Origin: Colwellia psychrerythraea 34H
GTDB lineage: Bacteria > Pseudomonadota > Gammaproteobacteria > Enterobacterales > Alteromonadaceae
Direction: 5' to 3'
Length of the DNA: 64,000 nt
Assembly (NCBI RefSeq): GCF_000012325.1
Contig: NC_003910.7
Coordinates: 2,728,001 to 2,792,000, forward strand
The position numbers were made by a program, and so were the translations under genes. The notes below the pieces were generated by a model. That model saw only the letters and a program-made list of their open reading frames with translations. It was not told the origin of the DNA and searched no databases. Shown piece after piece: positions 4,438-14,150 of the stretch. The first letter of the stretch is position 1, and each line of letters starts with the position of its first letter.

Positions 4438-4486
4438 AATGATTTAAACTAGCTTCAACTGCCTTATCTGCTTGGTTTTACAAATA

Positions 4487-5728
4487 ATGTTATTAACTAA
4501 ACCCGTTCCTTTATATCCACCATACATTGATTTGTGTGATTTCGACTTTGATGACTATCCTCAGTTAGATAAAATATTCTCATCTAATGAACCCTGGTGG
4601 CTTGAACAATTTAACTGGGGAAAGATTTTCCTTACCTACATTGGCAGAAATAAATCTGCACATACTTATGAGCGCTTTAGAAATGACGTTGAACGTTTTC
4701 TTTTATGGTCATTCATTGTAAAGAAAAAACCAATCGACCAATTACGTAAATCAGACTTATTAGAATATGCTGACTTTTGTTGGCAGCCACCAGTTGATTG
4801 GATTGGCACATCTAATCAAGAACGTTTTAAAATAACCAATGGATATTCAGCTGCTAATGAACTTTGGTTTCCATACAAGATTCAAGCACCTAAGAGCTTA
4901 AAGTCACAATTCGTCATTGATAAGAAAAAGTATCGTCCATCACAACAAACGCTTTCATCAATGTTTACCGCCATTATCGTTTTTTATAATTACCTGATGG
5001 CTGAAGATTTTTGTATTGGTAACCCTGCACAAATAGCTAAAAAAGATTGTCGCCACTTTATCATCGACTCTCAAGTTAAAGAAATCAAACGTTTAACCGG
5101 TAGCCAATGGCAATTCGTCTTAGATACTGCTGTTGAAATGGCTGATGAAAATGCAATGTTTGAACGAAACTTATTTGTAATAGCGTCCTTAAAAACCCTA
5201 TTCTTAAGGATTTCAGAGCTATCCGAGCGTCCTAACTGGTCACCAACTATGGGGCATTTTTGGCAAGATGACGATGAAAACTGGTGGCTTAAAATCTTTG
5301 GCAAAAGCCGAAAATTACGTGATATTACGGTTCCTATCGACTTTTTACCCTTTTTAGAACGTTATCGTGCTTCTCGTGGTTTATTAGGTTTACCCTCAAG
5401 CAATGAAAATTCTATTCTTGTTGAAAAAGTCCGTGGTCAAGGCGGCATGACATCTCGACATTTACGACGTTTAGTACAAAGTGTTTTCGACCAAGCACAC
5501 GAAAATATGCGCAGATCAGAAGGTGAAAACAAAGCACTAAAACTCAAAGAAGCTTCTGCCCATTGGTTAAGGCACACCGGAGCTAGTATGGAAATTGAAC
5601 GTGGGCGCCCTCTTAAAGATATTTCTGAAGATCTTGGTCATGCCAGTATGGCAACAACGGATACTGTTTATGTTCAGAGTGAAAACAAGAAACGTGCAGA
5701 AAGCGGTAAACGCAGAAAGGTAGACTAG
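4487..5728 (+). CDS. Tyrosine recombinase / phage-type integrase
   Basis: This is a site-specific recombinase of the tyrosine family, 413 residues from ATG 4487; a TTG at 4472 is an alternative start. An N-terminal SAM-like DNA-binding region (about 40-175) precedes the catalytic domain. Catalytic residues are visible: Arg241 (L-R-I-S-E-L), Lys273, the HxxR box His359/Arg362 (A-H-W-L-R-H-T-G), His385 (L-G-H-A-S) and nucleophile Tyr395 (D-T-V-Y). The C-terminus is strongly basic. It is neither XerC/XerD-like in length nor an integron IntI, since the IntI-specific insert is not apparent. No phage structural genes or partner recombinases lie nearby, so it is an orphan or the remaining gene of a small integrating element. 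No convincing ribosome site precedes the ATG. Confidence 0.85.
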   Translation: MLLTKPVPLYPPYIDLCDFDFDDYPQLDKIFSSNEPWWLEQFNWGKIFLTYIGRNKSAHTYERFRNDVERFLLWSFIVKKKPIDQLRKSDLLEYADFCWQPPVDWIGTSNQERFKITNGYSAANELWFPYKIQAPKSLKSQFVIDKKKYRPSQQTLSSMFTAIIVFYNYLMAEDFCIGNPAQIAKKDCRHFIIDSQVKEIKRLTGSQWQFVLDTAVEMADENAMFERNLFVIASLKTLFLRISELSERPNWSPTMGHFWQDDDENWWLKIFGKSRKLRDITVPIDFLPFLERYRASRGLLGLPSSNENSILVEKVRGQGGMTSRHLRRLVQSVFDQAHENMRRSEGENKALKLKEASAHWLRHTGASMEIERGRPLKDISEDLGHASMATTDTVYVQSENKKRAESGKRRKVD

Positions 5729-6111
5729 CTAAACACAATGTAGCTACTCAGAATTATACTTTAATTGTTTTGCTTTTTTATTACTGAGAGTGTTAAATAA
5801 AACAGCGTGCTACGTAATTAATCACCCGTAATGACAAGCAAACTTTAGTAGAATTCACGTAGAGACAGGTTGTATTTTAGGCTAAGTAGCCTAAAGGTAC
5901 CATTAATAAAGGCTTGTAGCGATAGTGCACTTGATTTGAACCCTTTGTCATTATCGTTAAATTTCATCATAATTGATTAGATAAGCAACAATAACAATAC
6001 TATTTAGCCCGGAAAATGGTGATAAGCGCCCTGCTGTTAAACTTTTTACTTGTGCACTATTAATGGTGTTCACTTAAATGTTTTGTCTGTTTTTTACTGT
6101 TGGCACGTAAT
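5729..6111. other. Intergenic stretch with no gene
   Basis: About 380 bp without a plausible gene on either strand. It separates the rightward recombinase from the leftward nuclease operon. No terminator for the recombinase is evident. Confidence 0.5.
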
Positions 6112-6140
6112 AAAAAAGCCCTAACAGTTATGTTAGGGCC
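6112..6140 (-). terminator. Rho-independent terminator of the nuclease/PEP-CTERM operon
   Basis: On the minus strand GCCCTAACA and TGTTAGGGC form a perfect 9-bp stem with a 4-base loop followed by T6. It lies 66 bp after the stop codon of the PEP-CTERM gene and would end its leftward transcript. Confidence 0.85.
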
Positions 6141-6157
6141 TGCATTAAGTAGATAAT

Positions 6158-6191
6158 TCAACACTAATTCAACCTTTCAAATTAGTGTTGA
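6158..6191. repeat. 12-bp perfect inverted repeat before the terminator
   Basis: TCAACACTAATT (6158-6169) and AATTAGTGTTGA (6180-6191) pair perfectly with a 10-base loop, between the PEP-CTERM stop codon and its terminator. Without a T-run it may stabilise the 3' end of the mRNA. Confidence 0.6.
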
Positions 6192-6205
6192 TTGTTAAAA
6201 ACTAA

Positions 6206-6805
6206 TTATTTTATTATTCTTTTTCGAGCTAACACCGTTAACGCAATTAACATTAAGACCACTGTCATTGGCTCAGGTACATCAACAGGACCTGCAGAGT
6301 TAACGGCAAAATAAGCATTATTGCTGCTAACTTCGGCGAAAGAGGCACCAAACTCATTACCAAAAATCACATTCGTTAAATTCAATGTATCCGTTCCAAT
6401 ACTGGTAACGTTAAAATTTACACTCGCTAACACAAATTGGCTCAATCCATCTTGCACTGGTAAAAGTTCATCCCACCAAGCATAACTAATTTCAGATAAA
6501 CTCATACTGTCAGTCATAATATCAAAAACACTTTGATCGCTACCAGCAACACCTACATTGAGTTTATTACCAAAACTGTTAGAGACATAATCTATTATTG
6601 AATTGTCCCACGACAGAGTAAAATCAAAACTCGCTAATAACTTTTGAAAACCCAAACCATCTTCTTCAATATCGCTAATGATAAAATCTGCTGTGAGCAC
6701 GTCACCAACTTGATAACTATCTTGGTTTAGTTCTACCGAAAGTAATGTTGCCTGACTATTGAATGATACTAAAAGCATTGTTAATAACATTATTATTTTT
6801 TTCAT
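6206..6805 (-). CDS. Cohesin-like PEP-CTERM surface protein
   Basis: A 199-residue exported protein. Residues 1-19 are a Sec signal peptide. The body (about 20-170) reads like a cohesin-type jelly-roll beta sandwich: an opening V-E-L-N-Q-D-S-Y-Q-V-G-D strand pair, then F-D-F-T-L-S-W-D-N-S-I-I-D-Y-V, which fits the 'YDPxxLxV' strand of cohesins. The C-terminus has VPEP, a hydrophobic segment and an A-R-K-R tail: a PEP-CTERM signal processed and anchored by an exosortase, which is not in this window. It starts 30 bp after the nuclease gene with its own AAAAGGAA site, so both share a transcript. The nuclease ends in a dockerin, so this protein is a plausible surface anchor for it. PEP-CTERM is certain; cohesin is a by-eye fold guess. 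Confidence 0.8.
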   Translation of the reverse strand: MKKIIMLLTMLLVSFNSQATLLSVELNQDSYQVGDVLTADFIISDIEEDGLGFQKLLASFDFTLSWDNSIIDYVSNSFGNKLNVGVAGSDQSVFDIMTDSMSLSEISYAWWDELLPVQDGLSQFVLASVNFNVTSIGTDTLNLTNVIFGNEFGASFAEVSSNNAYFAVNSAGPVDVPEPMTVVLMLIALTVLARKRIIK

Positions 6806-6835
6806 GATAATTTCCTTTTAAATTTATTGAATGAA

Positions 6836-9800
6836 TTATTCTGTCGCACAACGCGAACGAGTACATAAAGACATTAATGCTCTAACATCTAGACTGTTAA
6901 CGACACTATCGTTATTAAAGTCATGTTGAATATCACCTGTTTCACCACGGCGAACCATCATAGAAAATTGAGTCACATCATTGCGATCTATGTCTGCATC
7001 GCCATCAAAATCACCGATAAGTTCTGCTTCACTGAGTAGATTCAGCACAACAATGACAGGATCATGGTCTGATGCTCGATACGCATCTTCAGCAAAGTAA
7101 GTTGAAAGTTGTTCTGATGATTTATATTCGGTGTTGTAATCAAATATACGAGGCTCATCAGCATTGATATGCCATACGGTAGTATCTACTACTTGACTAG
7201 CTAACTTATCGCTTGCAAGGGCATGGTCTAAATAACCAATTTCACCACCAAAACTATACGAATAACCAGTACTTCCCATATAGTCAGCAACTAAATTATG
7301 ATAATTACTGTTGGTAATCGCATTAATTGGATCTTCTTTACCGTAAGCATTCAAATCACCAATAATTAAGAAATCATCATCGCTAGTGCCCGTAGGTTTT
7401 GTGTTTAACCAAGCCGTTAAGCCATTGGCTGCTTGTGTTCTCAACTCATTCCAACATCCTTGACCGTCTCCTTGATCAAGATTATTGCCAGAGGCACTGC
7501 CACAACTTCCTTTCGACTTAAAGTGATTAACCGCAATGGTTAGCTCTTCATTCGACGCTATTTCTTTGAAGGTTTGAACCAGCGGTTGACGGTTACCAAA
7601 ATCAAATGGGCTTTGATTAGTAGTAACAGCATTACCCACTATTCCGACAGTAGCGGGTTTATAAATAATTCCTACTGCAATGGCATCGCCACCAACACCT
7701 GTTTGGTCGAGACTAACGTAGTTATATGTCCCTTCTCCTACTTGACTATTTAGCTGTTTAACAAGATCTGCTATGGCAGAATTGCTGTCAAAACCATCGT
7801 TTTCTAACTCCATCAGTCCAACAATATCTGCATTAATTTCTTTTAGTGCAGACACAATTTTACTGCTTTGACGGGTAAATTCTTCAAGCGTATCTGCACC
7901 GCGCGCAGTAGGGAAACCTTGACCAGCACCGTCTCCATTGAAGTAATTTAAAACGTTAAAGCTTGCTACTTTTAAGGAGCCACTTTCATTGAGATCAGGT
8001 TGTGTTGTTCTCACATTTGTCGTACTAAATAGTGGTGTCGTTGTTGGCAACACACGATATTGATTGAAACTATAATCAATGACACCAGTTAAACCCGTAA
8101 CAGAATCGCCCAAACGTAAAGTATTTTCATGACTCAATCCAGGTGCTGGAAATGGTACATTGTCAGGGTTTTGCGCGTTGTTCATATCATCTAATGTGAT
8201 TCTATTTCGGCTGTTTTTATCCGCTAAATCAATAGCTTGCTCGCTACCTGCGTTATAAATATTGGTAGGCAATATCAAGCGTCCATTAGACAGCGTTAGC
8301 TGACCATAACGAGCCAGATTATAAGTATCACTAACTTTCAAAGTATCGTTAAAGCTCACTGACATGCCTTCGATAGTTTCCCAGTAATCGATACTTGAAA
8401 CCGGTAAAGACACCATTGTAGGCTCAATTGATTCACCAACACCACAATCAATAAAGTCTGTTGTCGCCGTCAATTGGGTACGGCCAAAACTCTCTTTGAT
8501 GGTACCAAGTATTCTTATTTTATTGCCCTCTGTGGGGAAGTTAGCAATGTTATTAAAGTAAACAAATATTGCTTCAGAGGTCATCAAATCAGCATCAGTA
8601 TCGTCTGCTTCTTCTTGTACAAAATACCCTTTTAAGCTTGGCACGGCTGACGTAACAGAGCCTTCAATAACTTTAACTTCACCAATAACGGTTGAGTCAT
8701 TGCTACTGCCTTGAATTACATTAATTTTGTCAGCTTCATCACCACACATTCCAATAACAGGATCTTCACCTGTACCAGGATCTGTCGGAGAAGTATCAGC
8801 GAGATGTGAGCCCAAATTTTCAAAAGTATCTTTAGGATTTGACTGCCACTGATCTGCTTTAATAAATTCATCCATTCGGTCGGTATCACCTGATGTTATT
8901 GAAGATAAACGTAGTAATGAAGTATCTTTACCCCAATTTTCTCTCACACCATAAGTACCAATATTATCGATAATCGTATCGCCATGTACGAGCTCTACAT
9001 AATCATCACCATTAAAATTAACAGCACTTACAAAATGGTCGATAAATGGTACTAATAAACTATCATCTGCAATTTGACTAGAGCCAAGTACCACCACATC
9101 ATTAGCAAGTATCTCACCCGTTAATGTATAGGTACCAGTAGCGGTAAGACTTCCATTTGAATAAAGCTTGAATTGATAATCCGCCAATGATATTGCACTG
9201 TTTGTTGGGTTATAAATCTCTATTGCTTTATTAAAGCTAGAACCTTCAACATATTCAGAGAAAAACAAATCAACTCCCGTTGCAGGAGGATCTACTGGAT
9301 CAACGGGGTCGACCGGATCAACCTCTGAACATGATGCGCTATATAGCGTTGAAATCCATTCTGGGTGATCAATAAATGGATTACGATTTCCTTGAAACTC
9401 ATAAATTTTATTATTTCGATTAATTTCAAACTCATCAACCGGATCTTCTTCACTCCACGCTAACAAAGTACATAACTTACCTAATTTGGCTTCACCACCA
9501 GAGGTTAAGGTATCGACAACTTGTAGGTCGGGTGTTACAGAATCTAATCCGGCATAACGAGTATCCATATATAAAACGATACGAGCAACATCGCCTTTTA
9601 CAGCATCTCTTGGTTCAAATGAATTTCCGTCTACGCGATTATCTGGAGCTTCTGGTAAAGGTGCATCACTATTATCAAAATCTAAGTTACCTCTTGAAGA
9701 GTTAACGGATATATCCGTCGGTCTTAAGTGGTGAATATCTGAATAAGCCATAGCACTTGAACTTGGGAAGCCGTGGCTTTTTGCCCAAACATGTTCACGG

Positions 9801-10768
9801 TTCCAGTTATCAGGGTTGGTCGATTGTGAACCACTACCATTGGAATTTTTTGCTTTAGAAATACCACGATAAAATAAGATAACATTATCAGGGTTCATCG
9901 GGTCTTCATCAGTAACAGTTAATGCTGTCCATGCTTCTGAATAGGTTAACTGCTTATGATTTGCTGAGATGACTTCATTGATGTTGGTTCGAATAACCTC
10001 GGTACTTTGTACAGAATCAATGGCGTTAAACACAGCGGCATAATAGGTAGCATCAACAAAGTCTTCTGCACTTTCTATCGTGCTTAAGTCTGGGCAATTA
10101 TAACAAGCATCTGTGACTGGACCTTGACTACTATCACCTCCTCCATCTTCAACACCAGAAGTAACGAGTACGTTATCCAAACGAATATATTCAGAGCCAG
10201 AGTTGTTTGCCATAGAAGCTTTAATTTGAAGCGTACTTCCTTCTGCAATGCTTTGTGTTATGGCTGCAGACGTAAAGTCATCAATCAATGTGTGACTACT
10301 GCTGCCTTTACCTTGCCAGTTTTCTACCTTAACAAAAGGCGCATCATCTATTGAATAGGAAAGATCAAAAAAATCAGCTGATTCAAGGGTGCCACTTTCT
10401 TCTGCTAACACAGAAATGTTAATATTCTGCTTGCCTTGAATATCAATTTTCTCCGATAGCCAATCTACACTGCCATCTACATCTCTTGCTTCGACTTTAT
10501 TATTCGTGACTTTAAACCAATCACTGTTTGCTGTTAATTGTGCATTAGTAACATCAATAGACCAGCGAGTAACACCGTCCATATCGATGGTTTCATAAAC
10601 TGCTCCTTTATTGGTTAATGCTGGGTCAGAAAAGTCTTCAGACCACAGTGTTTCAGCACTTAAAGCACTGTAGCTAACAAAGCTTGAAGCAACACAAAGT
10701 GCAATCGAGTTTAATTTTAATTTATTTTTGCCAAAAAATAGACTTGGCACTACCTTACGAGTCTTCAT
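6836..10768 (-). CDS. Large secreted double nuclease: endonuclease I + lamin-tail + ExeM-type EEP nuclease + C-terminal dockerin
   Basis: A 1310-residue secreted protein. Domains in order: N-terminal signal region (hydrophobic stretch near residues 20-38); a beta-sandwich segment (about 40-205); an EndA/NucM-type endonuclease I domain (about 225-465) with the His-Me-finger R-E-H-V-W-A-K-S at 324-331; a V-D-P repeat linker; a lamin-tail domain; an ExeM OB-like region; an endonuclease/exonuclease/phosphatase domain (A-S-F-N-V-L-N-Y, M-E-L-E-N-D, G-D-L-N-A-Y, A-S-D-H-D-P); and residues about 1250-1310, two EF-hand-like repeats (DFDGDADIDRND and DFNNDSVVNSLD) that form a type I dockerin. ExeM relatives degrade extracellular DNA for nutrition or biofilm release. 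The ATG at 10768 has GGAGA 6 bases upstream; a TTG at 10789 is less likely. Two nucleases in one chain and the dockerin are unusual for the family. Confidence 0.9.
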   Translation of the reverse strand: MKTRKVVPSLFFGKNKLKLNSIALCVASSFVSYSALSAETLWSEDFSDPALTNKGAVYETIDMDGVTRWSIDVTNAQLTANSDWFKVTNNKVEARDVDGSVDWLSEKIDIQGKQNINISVLAEESGTLESADFFDLSYSIDDAPFVKVENWQGKGSSSHTLIDDFTSAAITQSIAEGSTLQIKASMANNSGSEYIRLDNVLVTSGVEDGGGDSSQGPVTDACYNCPDLSTIESAEDFVDATYYAAVFNAIDSVQSTEVIRTNINEVISANHKQLTYSEAWTALTVTDEDPMNPDNVILFYRGISKAKNSNGSGSQSTNPDNWNREHVWAKSHGFPSSSAMAYSDIHHLRPTDISVNSSRGNLDFDNSDAPLPEAPDNRVDGNSFEPRDAVKGDVARIVLYMDTRYAGLDSVTPDLQVVDTLTSGGEAKLGKLCTLLAWSEEDPVDEFEINRNNKIYEFQGNRNPFIDHPEWISTLYSASCSEVDPVDPVDPVDPPATGVDLFFSEYVEGSSFNKAIEIYNPTNSAISLADYQFKLYSNGSLTATGTYTLTGEILANDVVVLGSSQIADDSLLVPFIDHFVSAVNFNGDDYVELVHGDTIIDNIGTYGVRENWGKDTSLLRLSSITSGDTDRMDEFIKADQWQSNPKDTFENLGSHLADTSPTDPGTGEDPVIGMCGDEADKINVIQGSSNDSTVIGEVKVIEGSVTSAVPSLKGYFVQEEADDTDADLMTSEAIFVYFNNIANFPTEGNKIRILGTIKESFGRTQLTATTDFIDCGVGESIEPTMVSLPVSSIDYWETIEGMSVSFNDTLKVSDTYNLARYGQLTLSNGRLILPTNIYNAGSEQAIDLADKNSRNRITLDDMNNAQNPDNVPFPAPGLSHENTLRLGDSVTGLTGVIDYSFNQYRVLPTTTPLFSTTNVRTTQPDLNESGSLKVASFNVLNYFNGDGAGQGFPTARGADTLEEFTRQSSKIVSALKEINADIVGLMELENDGFDSNSAIADLVKQLNSQVGEGTYNYVSLDQTGVGGDAIAVGIIYKPATVGIVGNAVTTNQSPFDFGNRQPLVQTFKEIASNEELTIAVNHFKSKGSCGSASGNNLDQGDGQGCWNELRTQAANGLTAWLNTKPTGTSDDDFLIIGDLNAYGKEDPINAITNSNYHNLVADYMGSTGYSYSFGGEIGYLDHALASDKLASQVVDTTVWHINADEPRIFDYNTEYKSSEQLSTYFAEDAYRASDHDPVIVVLNLLSEAELIGDFDGDADIDRNDVTQFSMMVRRGETGDIQHDFNNDSVVNSLDVRALMSLCTRSRCATE

Positions 10769-11166
10769 TTCATTTCTCCAAATTTTCAATGAATTTACGT
10801 TAAAAAAGTACTTCTATTGGTTAAAACTTCAACTTGATTCTGAACGATAAATGTTACAGTTTTGTTATTTAACGGTAAGATTGTTGTTATTATTGACCAA
10901 ATAGTCAACTACTAAGTGTATATAAAATAAACATATTTAATAAAACACTCTATCTGGTCAGTTAGAGTAAGGGTTTGAGGTTGATTTTATTTTGTACAGC
11001 CCGAATAAAAAAGACTAAAAATCGATGGCTCGATGGTATTAGATGAGAAAGGAACGATTGGTTAAGCCATACTGGAGCCAGTATGGCAATTTACTAGGAG
11101 TAATCTATTAAACTTTTAGTTGTGGGTGCGATACTACATGAATAACAATCAACGGAGACTAGCTCA
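10769..11166. other. Upstream region of the nuclease operon
   Basis: About 400 bp without a gene. It must carry the leftward promoter of the nuclease operon and the 3' end of the DMT transporter transcript. An imperfect TTGAC-n5-GGTCAA element lies near 10895-10910; its meaning is unknown. I saw no acceptable Pho box. Confidence 0.45.
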
Positions 11167-12027
11167 TTATTTTCGTTTTGCAATCAACAGCGCTGACACT
11201 ATCAACAGTGATCCAATGGTAAGTCTGACTAATTCTTCTGGTGTTCCCCCTTTAGCTTCACCAAAAATAAACAAGGAAGCAAACATAGCCAGTGGTACTA
11301 CCGCATTATTGAATGTTGCTAATACACCAACACTTGTTTGAGTTCCGCCTTTATTCCAAAGGAAGAAACAAAGCCCTGAGGCAATTATCCCCATATACAC
11401 TAAAACAAACCACTGTGTTGGTGTTGCGTTCAATGGAATAGGTGGTTGATGAGAAATTAATAGCGTAGCAATGGTAGTAAAAATGGCTGCACCTAGGTAT
11501 AAAAAACCAAAAATAGAGCTGTCAGTAATATGTGCTCTACTTCTTTTCCAATCGCGATAATAAACTTGCCCAAAAGCAAAGGCCAGATTAGCTACTTGCA
11601 TCAAACCAAATCCTAACCAAATTTCGTTTGAATCTATATTGCCCATTTTTATAATTGCGGCACCAAAAACAGACAGAACAGTGGCCACTAAATACCAAGG
11701 GGTAAAACTACGTTGTCTAAGATCGTTAATAATAACGATATAAAGTGGCGTAAGTACGCTAAATAGCGCGACAAGGTGTGATGGTAGATAGCGAAAAGCG
11801 GAAAGATAACAGGTATACATTACACCGTATTGAAGTGCGCCAAGCAATATCAACTGCCGTTTTTCCTTCCCGTTGGTATTACCGAATTTCATAAAGGGAA
11901 TAAAAGCAATTAGCGCAAGTAACAGGCGAGTATCTGCTATTTGAAGTGGGTCAAGACCTTTGAGTGCGTTACCAATTAGACCAAAGGAAAAAGCCCAAAT
12001 TAGCGTAGTGATCGCTAGATAAATCAT
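11167..12027 (-). CDS. DMT-superfamily (EamA) inner-membrane transporter
   Basis: A 286-residue, almost entirely hydrophobic protein with about ten membrane segments arranged as two EamA repeats (roughly 1-130 and 145-280). This is the drug/metabolite transporter layout, usually exporters of amino acids, metabolites or drugs. The first repeat opens with W-A-F-S-F-G-L-I-G and the second with G-F-L-Y-L-G-A. The C-terminus ends in basic A-K-R-K. Substrate cannot be told. It is a single gene, downstream of a MITE-like repeat that occupies its upstream region, and is oriented like its neighbours. Confidence 0.85.
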   Translation of the reverse strand: MIYLAITTLIWAFSFGLIGNALKGLDPLQIADTRLLLALIAFIPFMKFGNTNGKEKRQLILLGALQYGVMYTCYLSAFRYLPSHLVALFSVLTPLYIVIINDLRQRSFTPWYLVATVLSVFGAAIIKMGNIDSNEIWLGFGLMQVANLAFAFGQVYYRDWKRSRAHITDSSIFGFLYLGAAIFTTIATLLISHQPPIPLNATPTQWFVLVYMGIIASGLCFFLWNKGGTQTSVGVLATFNNAVVPLAMFASLFIFGEAKGGTPEELVRLTIGSLLIVSALLIAKRK

Positions 12028-12254: not shown

Positions 12255-14150
12255 TTACCAGTTGTAAGTAGCACTGATGGTGTATTGTTCACCACGACCC
12301 GGTGTACCAGGTATCTCTTCAAAAGATTCATCCCAAAGATTGTCTGCTGCAAGCACAATATCTAAACCTTTAATCTGTGAAGGAGAAACCTTTAATGAAA
12401 GGTGTGTGAATAGAGCATCGTCGTCACCGTTGCGTAGAATGTTTTCTTCTTGTTTGCGCCACTCATTATCAACACGTACTTCTACGATGTCGCTAGGATG
12501 CCAAATAACACCTAATGTTACCCGATGATCTGGGAAGTTCAATGCATAAAAGCTAGCATCTATATCCGCAGCACCATAATCTTCTGATTTTTCAAGGAAG
12601 GTGTAACTAGTGATTATTTCTGCGTTTTCAAAACGCTTTACCGCAAGTAGTTCTAAACCTAAGGTATCAATATCAACCGGGTTTGCTGAACGAGCAGAAG
12701 TTGAACTCAAGCTATAGGTCCAATCGGTTAAATCATTGTCTTGTCGATAAAAAATAGCAGAATCAAGGCGCCAAGTTTCGCGATCTAATACCAAGCCTAA
12801 TTCTATGTTTTTAGTGGTTTCTCGCTCAAGATTATAATTACTTCTAAACAATCCACCACTATCACTACCACCGATAGCGGTATAACCAGCTACTTGACTG
12901 GCTTCTGCATAAGAGAGATAAATCGTTTGAGAAGTATCATCAGCATTAATTGTATCCCACGTTATATCACCAATCATTGATACTTGAGAATCGTCTCGAT
13001 TAGTATCATCAAAAGCCGCGCCGAGACGGACAGTTAATGCTTGGTCATTATGTAGATCCATTCGGTATTCAGGTAATACACTGAGCTTGTAATAATGACG
13101 AGAAGTAAAGTTATTTTCTAACGTGGTTGATTTAATACTGTCTGCTATAAACTGCGTTGAATAATTCAGTGCAAATGATGCTGTTTGGGCATGGCGACCG
13201 GATAACGCTATCGATTTAACATCAGTTTCGTGAAAAGCTTCAAAGATATCAGGGTTTTCACGGGAAAAAACATAATGGTCTTTGTTATTACGATAGTAAG
13301 TGGAAATTTCAAATGTGCTGTCTTGCGCATATTCCTGTTTATGATTAAGTATTAATAGTTGTGTTTCAAGATCTTCAGTTTCATTAACATTAAATGGCGT
13401 GTACATATTTGGCCAGCCAAAAAATTTGTCTTGAGAACCAAAAAACAGATCGGTCTGTGATGAAGGCCCAACTAACTGAATACGAGCAGAGGCACGTTGA
13501 AAATCATGATCGCCATTTTCTATCGTGCCATCACTTTCAGAGCGAGAGAATTCACCTTCTAAACCAAGAGTCCAATCAGTAGAATCACCCAGTGCCATAC
13601 TCACACCACTGTGTATTCGTTGTAAATTAAAGTTGTTATTACCTGCGCCAATTGAAGCACTGCCTGCCGTTTTTATTGGTGTCCAGTTGCGGGAAACGGT
13701 CCCTACCGAGCTATTAACACCGTGCAGCGCATTATCTGCACCAGTCAGTACATTAGCATTACTTAACATTTCCTGAGCAATAGGAATTTCTGCAAAGTAA
13801 TGTCCAGTTTGCGGATCAAGTAATGTCGCGCTGCCAACCCTAAAGCCAGTATTTTCGAAAATACCACCACGAATAGTTACATCAGCTTGAGCTTCTGCCA
13901 TATTGCGTGACTGTAGATCAACGCGTGGGTCATATTCTAAATTAGAAACTGGCGAACCAAAAGTTCCCACAGGCTTAGTATTAGCCGTGGTTGAGCTTTC
14001 AACCGTGATTTTCTCAATATCATTACTGACATCTTCATTTACTATAGTGCTTACTTCATCACTTACTGCATGAATTTCATCGGATGCCGATGAAACAGTC
14101 GATAGGCTAAATAACAAAGCGGGCAAAGCAACTTGTACAACTCGAATCAT
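12255..14150 (-). CDS. TonB-dependent outer-membrane receptor
   Basis: A 631-residue outer-membrane protein with an N-terminal signal peptide (1-22), a plug region (about 60-170, with a Q-A-D-V-T-I-R-G-G-I-F plug strand and R-N-W-T) and a beta barrel of alternating aromatic strands ending in aromatic Trp (A-T-Y-N-W), the outer-membrane sorting signal. The size is like BtuB/siderophore-type receptors rather than the 900-residue carbohydrate type. A short acidic region (23-60) may include the TonB box. Substrate is unknown: there is no adjacent ABC importer or periplasmic binding protein, and no cobalamin riboswitch is visible upstream. It is monocistronic, with its own terminator. Confidence 0.85.
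   Translation of the reverse strand: MIRVVQVALPALLFSLSTVSSASDEIHAVSDEVSTIVNEDVSNDIEKITVESSTTANTKPVGTFGSPVSNLEYDPRVDLQSRNMAEAQADVTIRGGIFENTGFRVGSATLLDPQTGHYFAEIPIAQEMLSNANVLTGADNALHGVNSSVGTVSRNWTPIKTAGSASIGAGNNNFNLQRIHSGVSMALGDSTDWTLGLEGEFSRSESDGTIENGDHDFQRASARIQLVGPSSQTDLFFGSQDKFFGWPNMYTPFNVNETEDLETQLLILNHKQEYAQDSTFEISTYYRNNKDHYVFSRENPDIFEAFHETDVKSIALSGRHAQTASFALNYSTQFIADSIKSTTLENNFTSRHYYKLSVLPEYRMDLHNDQALTVRLGAAFDDTNRDDSQVSMIGDITWDTINADDTSQTIYLSYAEASQVAGYTAIGGSDSGGLFRSNYNLERETTKNIELGLVLDRETWRLDSAIFYRQDNDLTDWTYSLSSTSARSANPVDIDTLGLELLAVKRFENAEIITSYTFLEKSEDYGAADIDASFYALNFPDHRVTLGVIWHPSDIVEVRVDNEWRKQEENILRNGDDDALFTHLSLKVSPSQIKGLDIVLAADNLWDESFEEIPGTPGRGEQYTISATYNW

Follow-up and report, generated by a model that had tools for sequence, protein, structure and literature searches.

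How might a secreted nuclease that carries no membrane anchor of its own be held at the cell? The question is raised by two adjacent genes in a stretch of 64,000 nucleotides from Colwellia psychrerythraea 34H (hereafter the window; contig NC_003910.7, positions 2,728,001 to 2,792,000), one encoding a nuclease of the ExeM/NucH family and the other a protein of 199 residues with a PEP-CTERM sorting signal. A preliminary description of this DNA had proposed that the nuclease ends in a dockerin, that its neighbour resembles a cohesin, and that contact between the two tethers the enzyme. From sequence comparisons, we consider it highly probable that the genes form a two-gene enzyme-display module, in which one enzyme would be plugged into one exosortase-sorted cohesin.

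The nuclease tail and its neighbour

The nuclease gene (6836–10771; like all features of the pair, on the minus strand) encodes 1311 residues from an ATG codon, and its open reading frame reaches 10789 if a TTG start is used. The product scored 663.5 bits against the ExeM/NucH model NF033681 (cut-off 300 bits). An anchor of the GG-transmembrane type is absent from it: NF033680, the ExeM-GG model, returned 449 of the 1300 bits required, and the protein ends in the predicted dockerin followed by CTRSRCATE. The predicted domain, a type I dockerin (residues 1253–1299, 6875–7015), contains the two EF-hand-like repeats that had been pointed out beforehand, the calcium loops DFDGDADIDRND (6977–7012) and DFNNDSVVNSLD (6887–6922). 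Both 12-residue loops follow the dockerin pattern, with D at position 1, D or N at 3, D at 5, D or N at 9 and D at 12, and the D residues at positions 1 and 12 of both loops were invariant in an alignment of 44 tails.

Taken as single sequences, the two proteins give weak evidence for either domain because their scores lie below the Pfam cut-offs. Dockerin_1 (PF00404) reached 16.6 bits on the isolated tail and 11.5 bits on the whole nuclease (cut-off 22.9), and Cohesin (PF00963) reached 13.4 bits on the 199-residue protein (cut-off 24.1, E 0.093). When the whole genome, a single contig of 5,373,180 bases, was scanned at E ≤ 1, the nuclease was the sole Dockerin_1 match (E 0.74) and the 199-residue protein the sole Cohesin match (E 0.48); no further dockerin or cohesin gene was returned, and the two matches are neighbouring genes. 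An earlier dockerin scan of the same genome had placed the next matches after the nuclease only at E 1.1 and 1.9. Stray sub-cut-off matches to Dockerin_1 were frequent in control genomes (9 of 14), and those to Cohesin were rarer (2 of 14). Because such strays occur, the evidential weight lies on the adjacency of the two matches and not on the matches alone.

Profiles built from relatives were then compared with solved structures. A profile of five nuclease tails (A1) matched four chains at E ≤ 0.01, which we take to be the dockerin chains of complexes. With all 44 tails (A4), dockerin chains were matched from 2.2e-9 and calmodulin-like EF-hands lower down; the top match, above the dockerin chains, was a serine-protease entry (3.5e-10) that contains a pair of such repeats. 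Dockerin_1 itself matched 39 of the 44 tails, the window's included, at E ≤ 0.1 (best 4.7e-10). The type I layout first read from the letters is thus below cut-off in the single protein but is borne out by its family. A CxxxxC motif lies within the last 14 residues of 40 of the 44 tails and is common to this dockerin subtype; in the window it reads CTRSRC (6848–6865), and it may form a small disulphide clasp. The loops differ from each other at positions 10–11 (RN and SL). In clostridial dockerins, these positions make contact with the cohesin. Hence, by analogy, a single binding mode may be likelier than a dual one.

The neighbouring gene (6206–6805) begins 30 bp downstream of the nuclease gene. 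Its product shows a signal peptide by eye (residues 1–19, 6749–6805), with A19 invariant among homologues, followed by the cohesin-like domain (approximately residues 20–172, 6290–6748). A profile of the family (A5: 76 rows, mostly close homologues with a few distant ones) matched seven solved chains at E ≤ 1, of which six are scaffoldin cohesins. The best match, scaffoldin 3l8q, reached 3.9e-5 for the whole chain, with its best domain taken singly at 0.05. A single scaffoldin, ScaB, supplied the constructs of five of the six, and the seventh chain is the surface protein R28 (E 0.55). A wider profile (A3, 34 rows) gave 27 matches at E ≤ 0.02, the best at 1.1e-18: 22 scaffoldin or cellulosome chains, four chains of NagJ, which we take to have a cohesin-like module, and 7urp_A, an entry with an odd name. 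Unrelated proteins started only at 0.09. PF00963 also matched 22 of the 34 A3 members individually at E ≤ 1 (best 3.2e-6). Both partners of the same solved entries were found, 5lxv_A by A5 and 5lxv_B by A1, and for 2y3n and 2vn5 chain A by A3 and chain B by A1 and A4. The 199-residue protein therefore tested positive as a predicted member of the cohesin family, and both profiles support the cohesin-like nature suspected beforehand.

The C-terminal end of the protein, VPEPMTVVLMLIALTVLARKRIIK, consists of a PEP motif, a hydrophobic stretch and a basic end (residues 176–196, 6218–6280). It scored 18.0 bits with TIGR02595, over a cut-off of 16, and 14.7 bits with PF07589, below a cut-off of 20.7. 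The gap, the secretion and the sorting signal are accordingly as first described. The genome encodes one exosortase (TIGR02602, 282.9 bits over 105.55; PF09721, 133.4 bits) and has 19 PEP-CTERM matches over the cut-off. Among the 20 loci of a PEP-CTERM scan of this genome, a cohesin-core model found one, the 199-residue protein, and neither a cohesin core nor a dockerin was present in the other 19. The window's other weak A3 match (383132, 1.9e-6) was not recovered by this model.

Linkage across genomes

If the tail and the neighbour belong together, they might be expected to occur together. ExeM/NucH proteins were sought in 39 genomes of the same family and were present in 29 (34 matches, 30 available as loci). 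A cohesin neighbour accompanied 13 of the 17 nucleases with a dockerin versus none of the 13 without (Fisher p = 2.2e-5, phylogenetic dependence uncorrected). Nine of the 17 were the same genes as alignment members; with alignment members removed, the contrast was 5 of 8 versus 0 of 13 (p = 0.003). One dockerin-free nuclease (L156) has a GG-transmembrane end of its own, like the Shewanella protein.

The pairing was also followed outwards from each partner. In Colwellia, loci found via the 199-residue protein kept the pair intact in five of five cases, with gaps of 26–89 bp, and in L004 and L005 it was kept although the other neighbours differ. A nuclease-tail scan of 394 genomes of the order yielded 43 tails in 27 genomes, and the 42 besides the window's, from 26 genomes, were taken as loci. 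Cohesin-like neighbours were sought within 150 bp with a model trained only on homologues of the 199-residue protein. Such a gene was present at 27 of the 42 loci, 22 times downstream and five times upstream; 28 had first been counted, and L095 was removed because its neighbour gave no core match. In the opposite direction, 29 of the 72 cohesin-profile matches in the order were members of the query alignment A3, and we examined 12 of the 43 outside it, selected because they span most of the profile. Five of these 12 adjoin a gene that bears a dockerin according to the tail model, and four of the five dockerins end in another subtype without the Cys motif. Pfam supported the dockerin of L103 and none at E ≤ 1e-4 in L104, L106 and L108 (L101 lay outside this check); in L108 the best dockerin match is internal. 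Across 369 genomes of the class, 34 had a cohesin-profile match. The 39 class-wide matches returned 30 loci, and exclusion of three own-family loci left 27 from other orders, of which 11 had, at a distance of up to about 1.5 kb, another gene with a dockerin; at one of the 11, L128, a further gene lies between. Two further loci, L134 and L138, hold a cohesin stretch and a dockerin in one open reading frame and are not among the 11. Gene linkage, on which the proposed pairing could have failed, held at all five Colwellia loci, at 27 of 42 across the order and at 11 of 27 beyond it.

An exosortase was found in 83 of the 394 genomes of the order: 26 of 27 genomes that have a dockerin tail versus 57 of the 367 others (p = 2e-18, relatedness not corrected).

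Next, we asked which proteins carry the dockerin. Among 47 dockerin proteins besides the window's, 19 were ExeM-like and 28 fell into 16 groups unlinked by BLAST. Clients with a cohesin neighbour include BNR_4 and CBM6 proteins, an M43 protease, a porphyranase, M9 collagenases, a glucuronyl esterase and proteins with LamG domains; in other orders GSDH, subtilase, PASTA and IgGFc-binding proteins were found. A GH42-like dockerin protein (L060) had no such neighbour, and a VWA one (L092) had a cohesin at 528 bp. The tethering of a nuclease, as envisaged in the preliminary description, thus keeps its support for this pair and proves too narrow as a general account; the finding is broader because the pair is not specific to nucleases.

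Cohesin similarity and dockerin similarity correlated over 33 pairs (rho 0.41, 0 of 2000 permutations). The correlation persisted among pairs with non-homologous cargoes in different genomes (rho 0.32, 0 of 2000 permutations over 393 comparisons), and pairs inside one genome gave rho 0.56 (36 of 2000 permutations, 15 comparisons). Neighbouring genes that are inherited together would be expected to show such a correlation as well. Collectively, these comparisons show a member of each domain family, a PEP-CTERM sorting signal, an exosortase gene in the genome and a linkage that goes with the dockerin.

Within the nuclease, a Pfam search placed an Endonuclease_1 domain (residues 260–471, 9359–9994; PF04231, E 1.8e-40), a lamin tail domain (LTD; residues 497–605, 8957–9283; PF00932, E 7.5e-10) and, in the ExeM/NucH region (residues 702–1245, 7037–8668), an EEP catalytic domain (PF03372, E 6.3e-8). 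The 30-bp gap (6806–6835) contains a Shine-Dalgarno-like AAGGAA, and no terminator-like site was called inside it. A terminator-like hairpin of 11 pairs lies downstream of the pair (6116–6141) and has the longest stem of the three such sites found in the region, where 3.3 were expected from shuffles, i.e. no excess. A tyrosine-recombinase-like gene (Phage_integrase, 4472–5728, plus strand) converges with the pair and adjoins it also in L001 and L003, not in L004 or L005. Upstream of the nuclease lie genes for a DMT-type transporter, recognized by eye (11167–12027, minus strand), and a TonB-dependent-receptor-like barrel (12255–14150, minus strand); both kinds of gene also adjoin the nuclease in L001 and L002.

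Several loci depart from the arrangement in the window. A second dockerin-like subtype (L101, L103, L104, L106, L152 and L164) lacks the CxxxxC end, has LWYQ-like helices at its end and has a cohesin-like neighbour. In L108, the C-terminus of the cohesin-like protein (6052–6756, minus strand) departs from VPEP and has a PTPEP repeat with another kind of transmembrane end. The dockerin genes of L089, L094, L095 and L096 are followed by a PEP-CTERM-like protein of ~240–280 residues that is not recognizably a cohesin; these loci were counted as misses, and their neighbours are perhaps another partner type. The downstream neighbours in L116 and L117 have the dockerin right after the signal peptide, and the plug can therefore occupy either end of a client. 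L134 holds cohesin-like and dockerin stretches in consecutive and in the same reading frames, in a genome (G469) without an exosortase match, and is more like a small scaffold. In L121 (1–3623), a cohesin-like PEP-CTERM gene is flanked by a dockerin gene on either side; the dockerin is C-terminal in one and N-proximal in the other. Lastly, genome G272 is a candidate for sharing in trans: four of its dockerin genes (L060, L064, L065 and L079) lack a neighbouring cohesin, and of its cohesin-like PEP-CTERM genes one (L102) is unpaired and another (L106) paired.

A proposed plug-and-socket arrangement and its alternatives

We propose that signal peptides would export both the nuclease and the 199-residue protein. 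The genome's exosortase would recognize and process the PEP-CTERM tail of this single cohesin, and the processed cohesin would end up in the outer surface or matrix fraction. There, the anchorless nuclease would plug its calcium-loaded C-terminal dockerin into the cohesin, and the contact would keep the DNase cell-bound or matrix-bound. Binding, its calcium dependence, exosortase processing and the final location are what we infer. For other exoproteins, relatives would rely on this plug and socket too, as a rule with one client gene per cohesin gene. We also lean, with less assurance, towards a Gram-negative display system across the class. Many Gammaproteobacteria would then hold individual exoenzymes and adhesin-like proteins at the surface, each by a dedicated single cohesin that an exosortase sorts and whose gene lies beside that of the dockerin client. 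Specificities would be private, with some sharing in trans now and then.

A number of observations weigh against this proposal. A cohesin neighbour was missing at 4 of the 17 ExeM loci with a dockerin, and at 15 of the 42 dockerin loci of the order none was recognized within 150 bp (that of L092 lies beyond this distance). Conversely, no dockerin was found near 7 of the 12 cohesin matches outside the training set, nor at 14 of the 27 loci from other orders. The exosortase contrast is slight when the organism's own family is taken by itself (21 of 22 versus 9 of 13, p = 0.05); two of those nine genomes, G183 and G263, have a pair whose dockerin is of the other subtype. One genome (G244) has a dockerin without an exosortase, and also without a cohesin neighbour. 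In other orders, an exosortase was present in 20 of 31 genomes with a cohesin match (17 of 23 good assemblies) and in 8 of the 11 where a dockerin lies close by. The remaining three are G677, which is 85% complete, and G589 and G445, which at 99–100% are real exceptions. Several anchors deviate from VPEP (VPAPA, VSAPA, VSEPA). Lastly, a nearest-neighbour test of co-variation was weak, with the partner's dockerin in the top tenth at 8 of 33 loci.

Other explanations share some of this evidence. It is possible, if distinctly less likely, that the two proteins bind and that the PEP-CTERM step sends the complex to an exopolysaccharide (EPS) matrix or vesicle fraction, where it would organize the matrix and not anchor anything to the cell. 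PEP-CTERM proteins are known from EPS-producing bacteria, and no observation counts directly against this account. It overlaps the display module, from which it differs in the final location. An unlikely arrangement is a small scaffold, in which the cohesin would serve, in trans, dockerins borne by other proteins, or would be shared among several of them, with the neighbour as one client among others. The unpaired and paired genes of G272 and the doubly flanked cohesin gene of L121 would suit such sharing; in the window's genome, the only dockerin found is that of the nuclease.

Contact between the two proteins might also be absent. The genes could be co-transcribed for related roles, with the EF-hand tail serving as a calcium-binding stabilizer or a secretion signal, and the sub-cut-off single-sequence scores of both domains leave room for this. 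We judge it improbable: within one nuclease family the cohesin neighbour goes with the dockerin, unrelated clients have the same pair, and the neighbour falls by profile in a dockerin-binding family. Very improbable, in our view, is that the small protein is one more PEP-CTERM protein with a generic beta-sandwich, labelled a cohesin by chance of composition. Its single-sequence Cohesin E (0.093) and the best single-domain E of its family profile (0.05) would permit this, against which stand the composition of the A3 matches, with unrelated proteins only from 0.09, and the individual PF00963 matches of 22 of 34 relatives. The display module thus remains the reading that we prefer.

Comparison with known systems

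The nuclease family is known from Shewanella oneidensis, whose ExeM is membrane-associated and carries a GlyGly-CTERM/rhombosortase signal; according to the available part of that study, deletion of the anchor altered its location little (PMC6085458). The two enzymes share the family (NF033681) and, on our proposal, an association with the membrane or surface. By contrast, the anchor lies within the nuclease in S. oneidensis, as far as the accessible text describes it, and here a second protein would be the anchor (PMC6085458). The remark in the preliminary description that ExeM relatives have anchors of their own agrees with the available account of this protein (PMC6085458) and with L156. 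The pair suggests how anchorless ExeM nucleases could remain at the cell.

The sorting step would be that of the exosortase/PEP-CTERM system (TIGR02602, TIGR02595), which the genome has in the form of its one exosortase and 19 PEP-CTERM matches. For most PEP-CTERM proteins, no function is known. Peer et al. (2009) reportedly dealt with cohesin and dockerin modules that are not part of cellulosomes. In anaerobic methanotrophic (ANME) archaea, cohesins and dockerins occur outside cellulosomes, in genomes that also carry archaeosortase or exosortase genes (PMC5244752, PMC9012536), a likeness to the present case as far as the accessible parts of these papers go. Those parts give numbers of domains and hypotheses and, in contrast to our pair, no cohesin that has an exosortase-type tail and is paired with a dockerin-bearing enzyme (PMC5244752, PMC9012536); in its available text, the review of methanotrophic archaea treats exosortases and the cohesin and dockerin modules as separate topics and calls the role of the modules outside cellulosomes unknown (PMC5244752). 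A literature search returned no PEP-CTERM cohesin paired with a dockerin protein, with most subscription papers outside its coverage and absence in print thus unproven; among the papers covered, no text combined PEP-CTERM with dockerin or PEP-CTERM with cohesin, and exosortase occurred together with dockerin or cohesin in one, the review of methanotrophic archaea. The use of one plug-and-socket gene pair for many different enzymes suggests a means of keeping enzymes at the surface that the literature searched does not describe. Because the socket is short and secreted, the plug is short and the genome has one of each, the pair makes both the role of PEP-CTERM proteins and that of non-cellulosomal cohesins and dockerins directly testable. 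It also offers small plug-and-socket parts for Gram-negative surface display.

The closest parallel is the cellulosome, whose cohesin-dockerin systems (e.g. that of scaffoldin ScaB) involve the same two domain families by profile, with enzymes that have a dockerin tail and an anchor protein that has a cohesin. A multi-cohesin scaffoldin was not found, the whole genome giving one Cohesin match at E ≤ 1, nor were several dockerin-bearing cellulases, the one dockerin of the genome being on the nuclease. With these multi-cohesin and multi-enzyme features tested and absent, the pair is not a cellulosome, although it would work like the anchoring cohesin of one. Unlike in cellulosomes, each anchor has a single cohesin and the genome a single cohesin match, the hosts are Gram-negative, the clients are non-cellulolytic and the pairing is gene by gene. 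The dockerin here also has a CxxxxC tail, which to our knowledge is absent from clostridial dockerins. Clostridial anchors use SLH domains or sortase, according to the accessible text of PMC9012536, where the present anchor has a PEP-CTERM signal. If true, a class-wide system would give a defined job to a set of PEP-CTERM proteins and would amount to a cellulosome counterpart in distributed form, with one plug to one socket.

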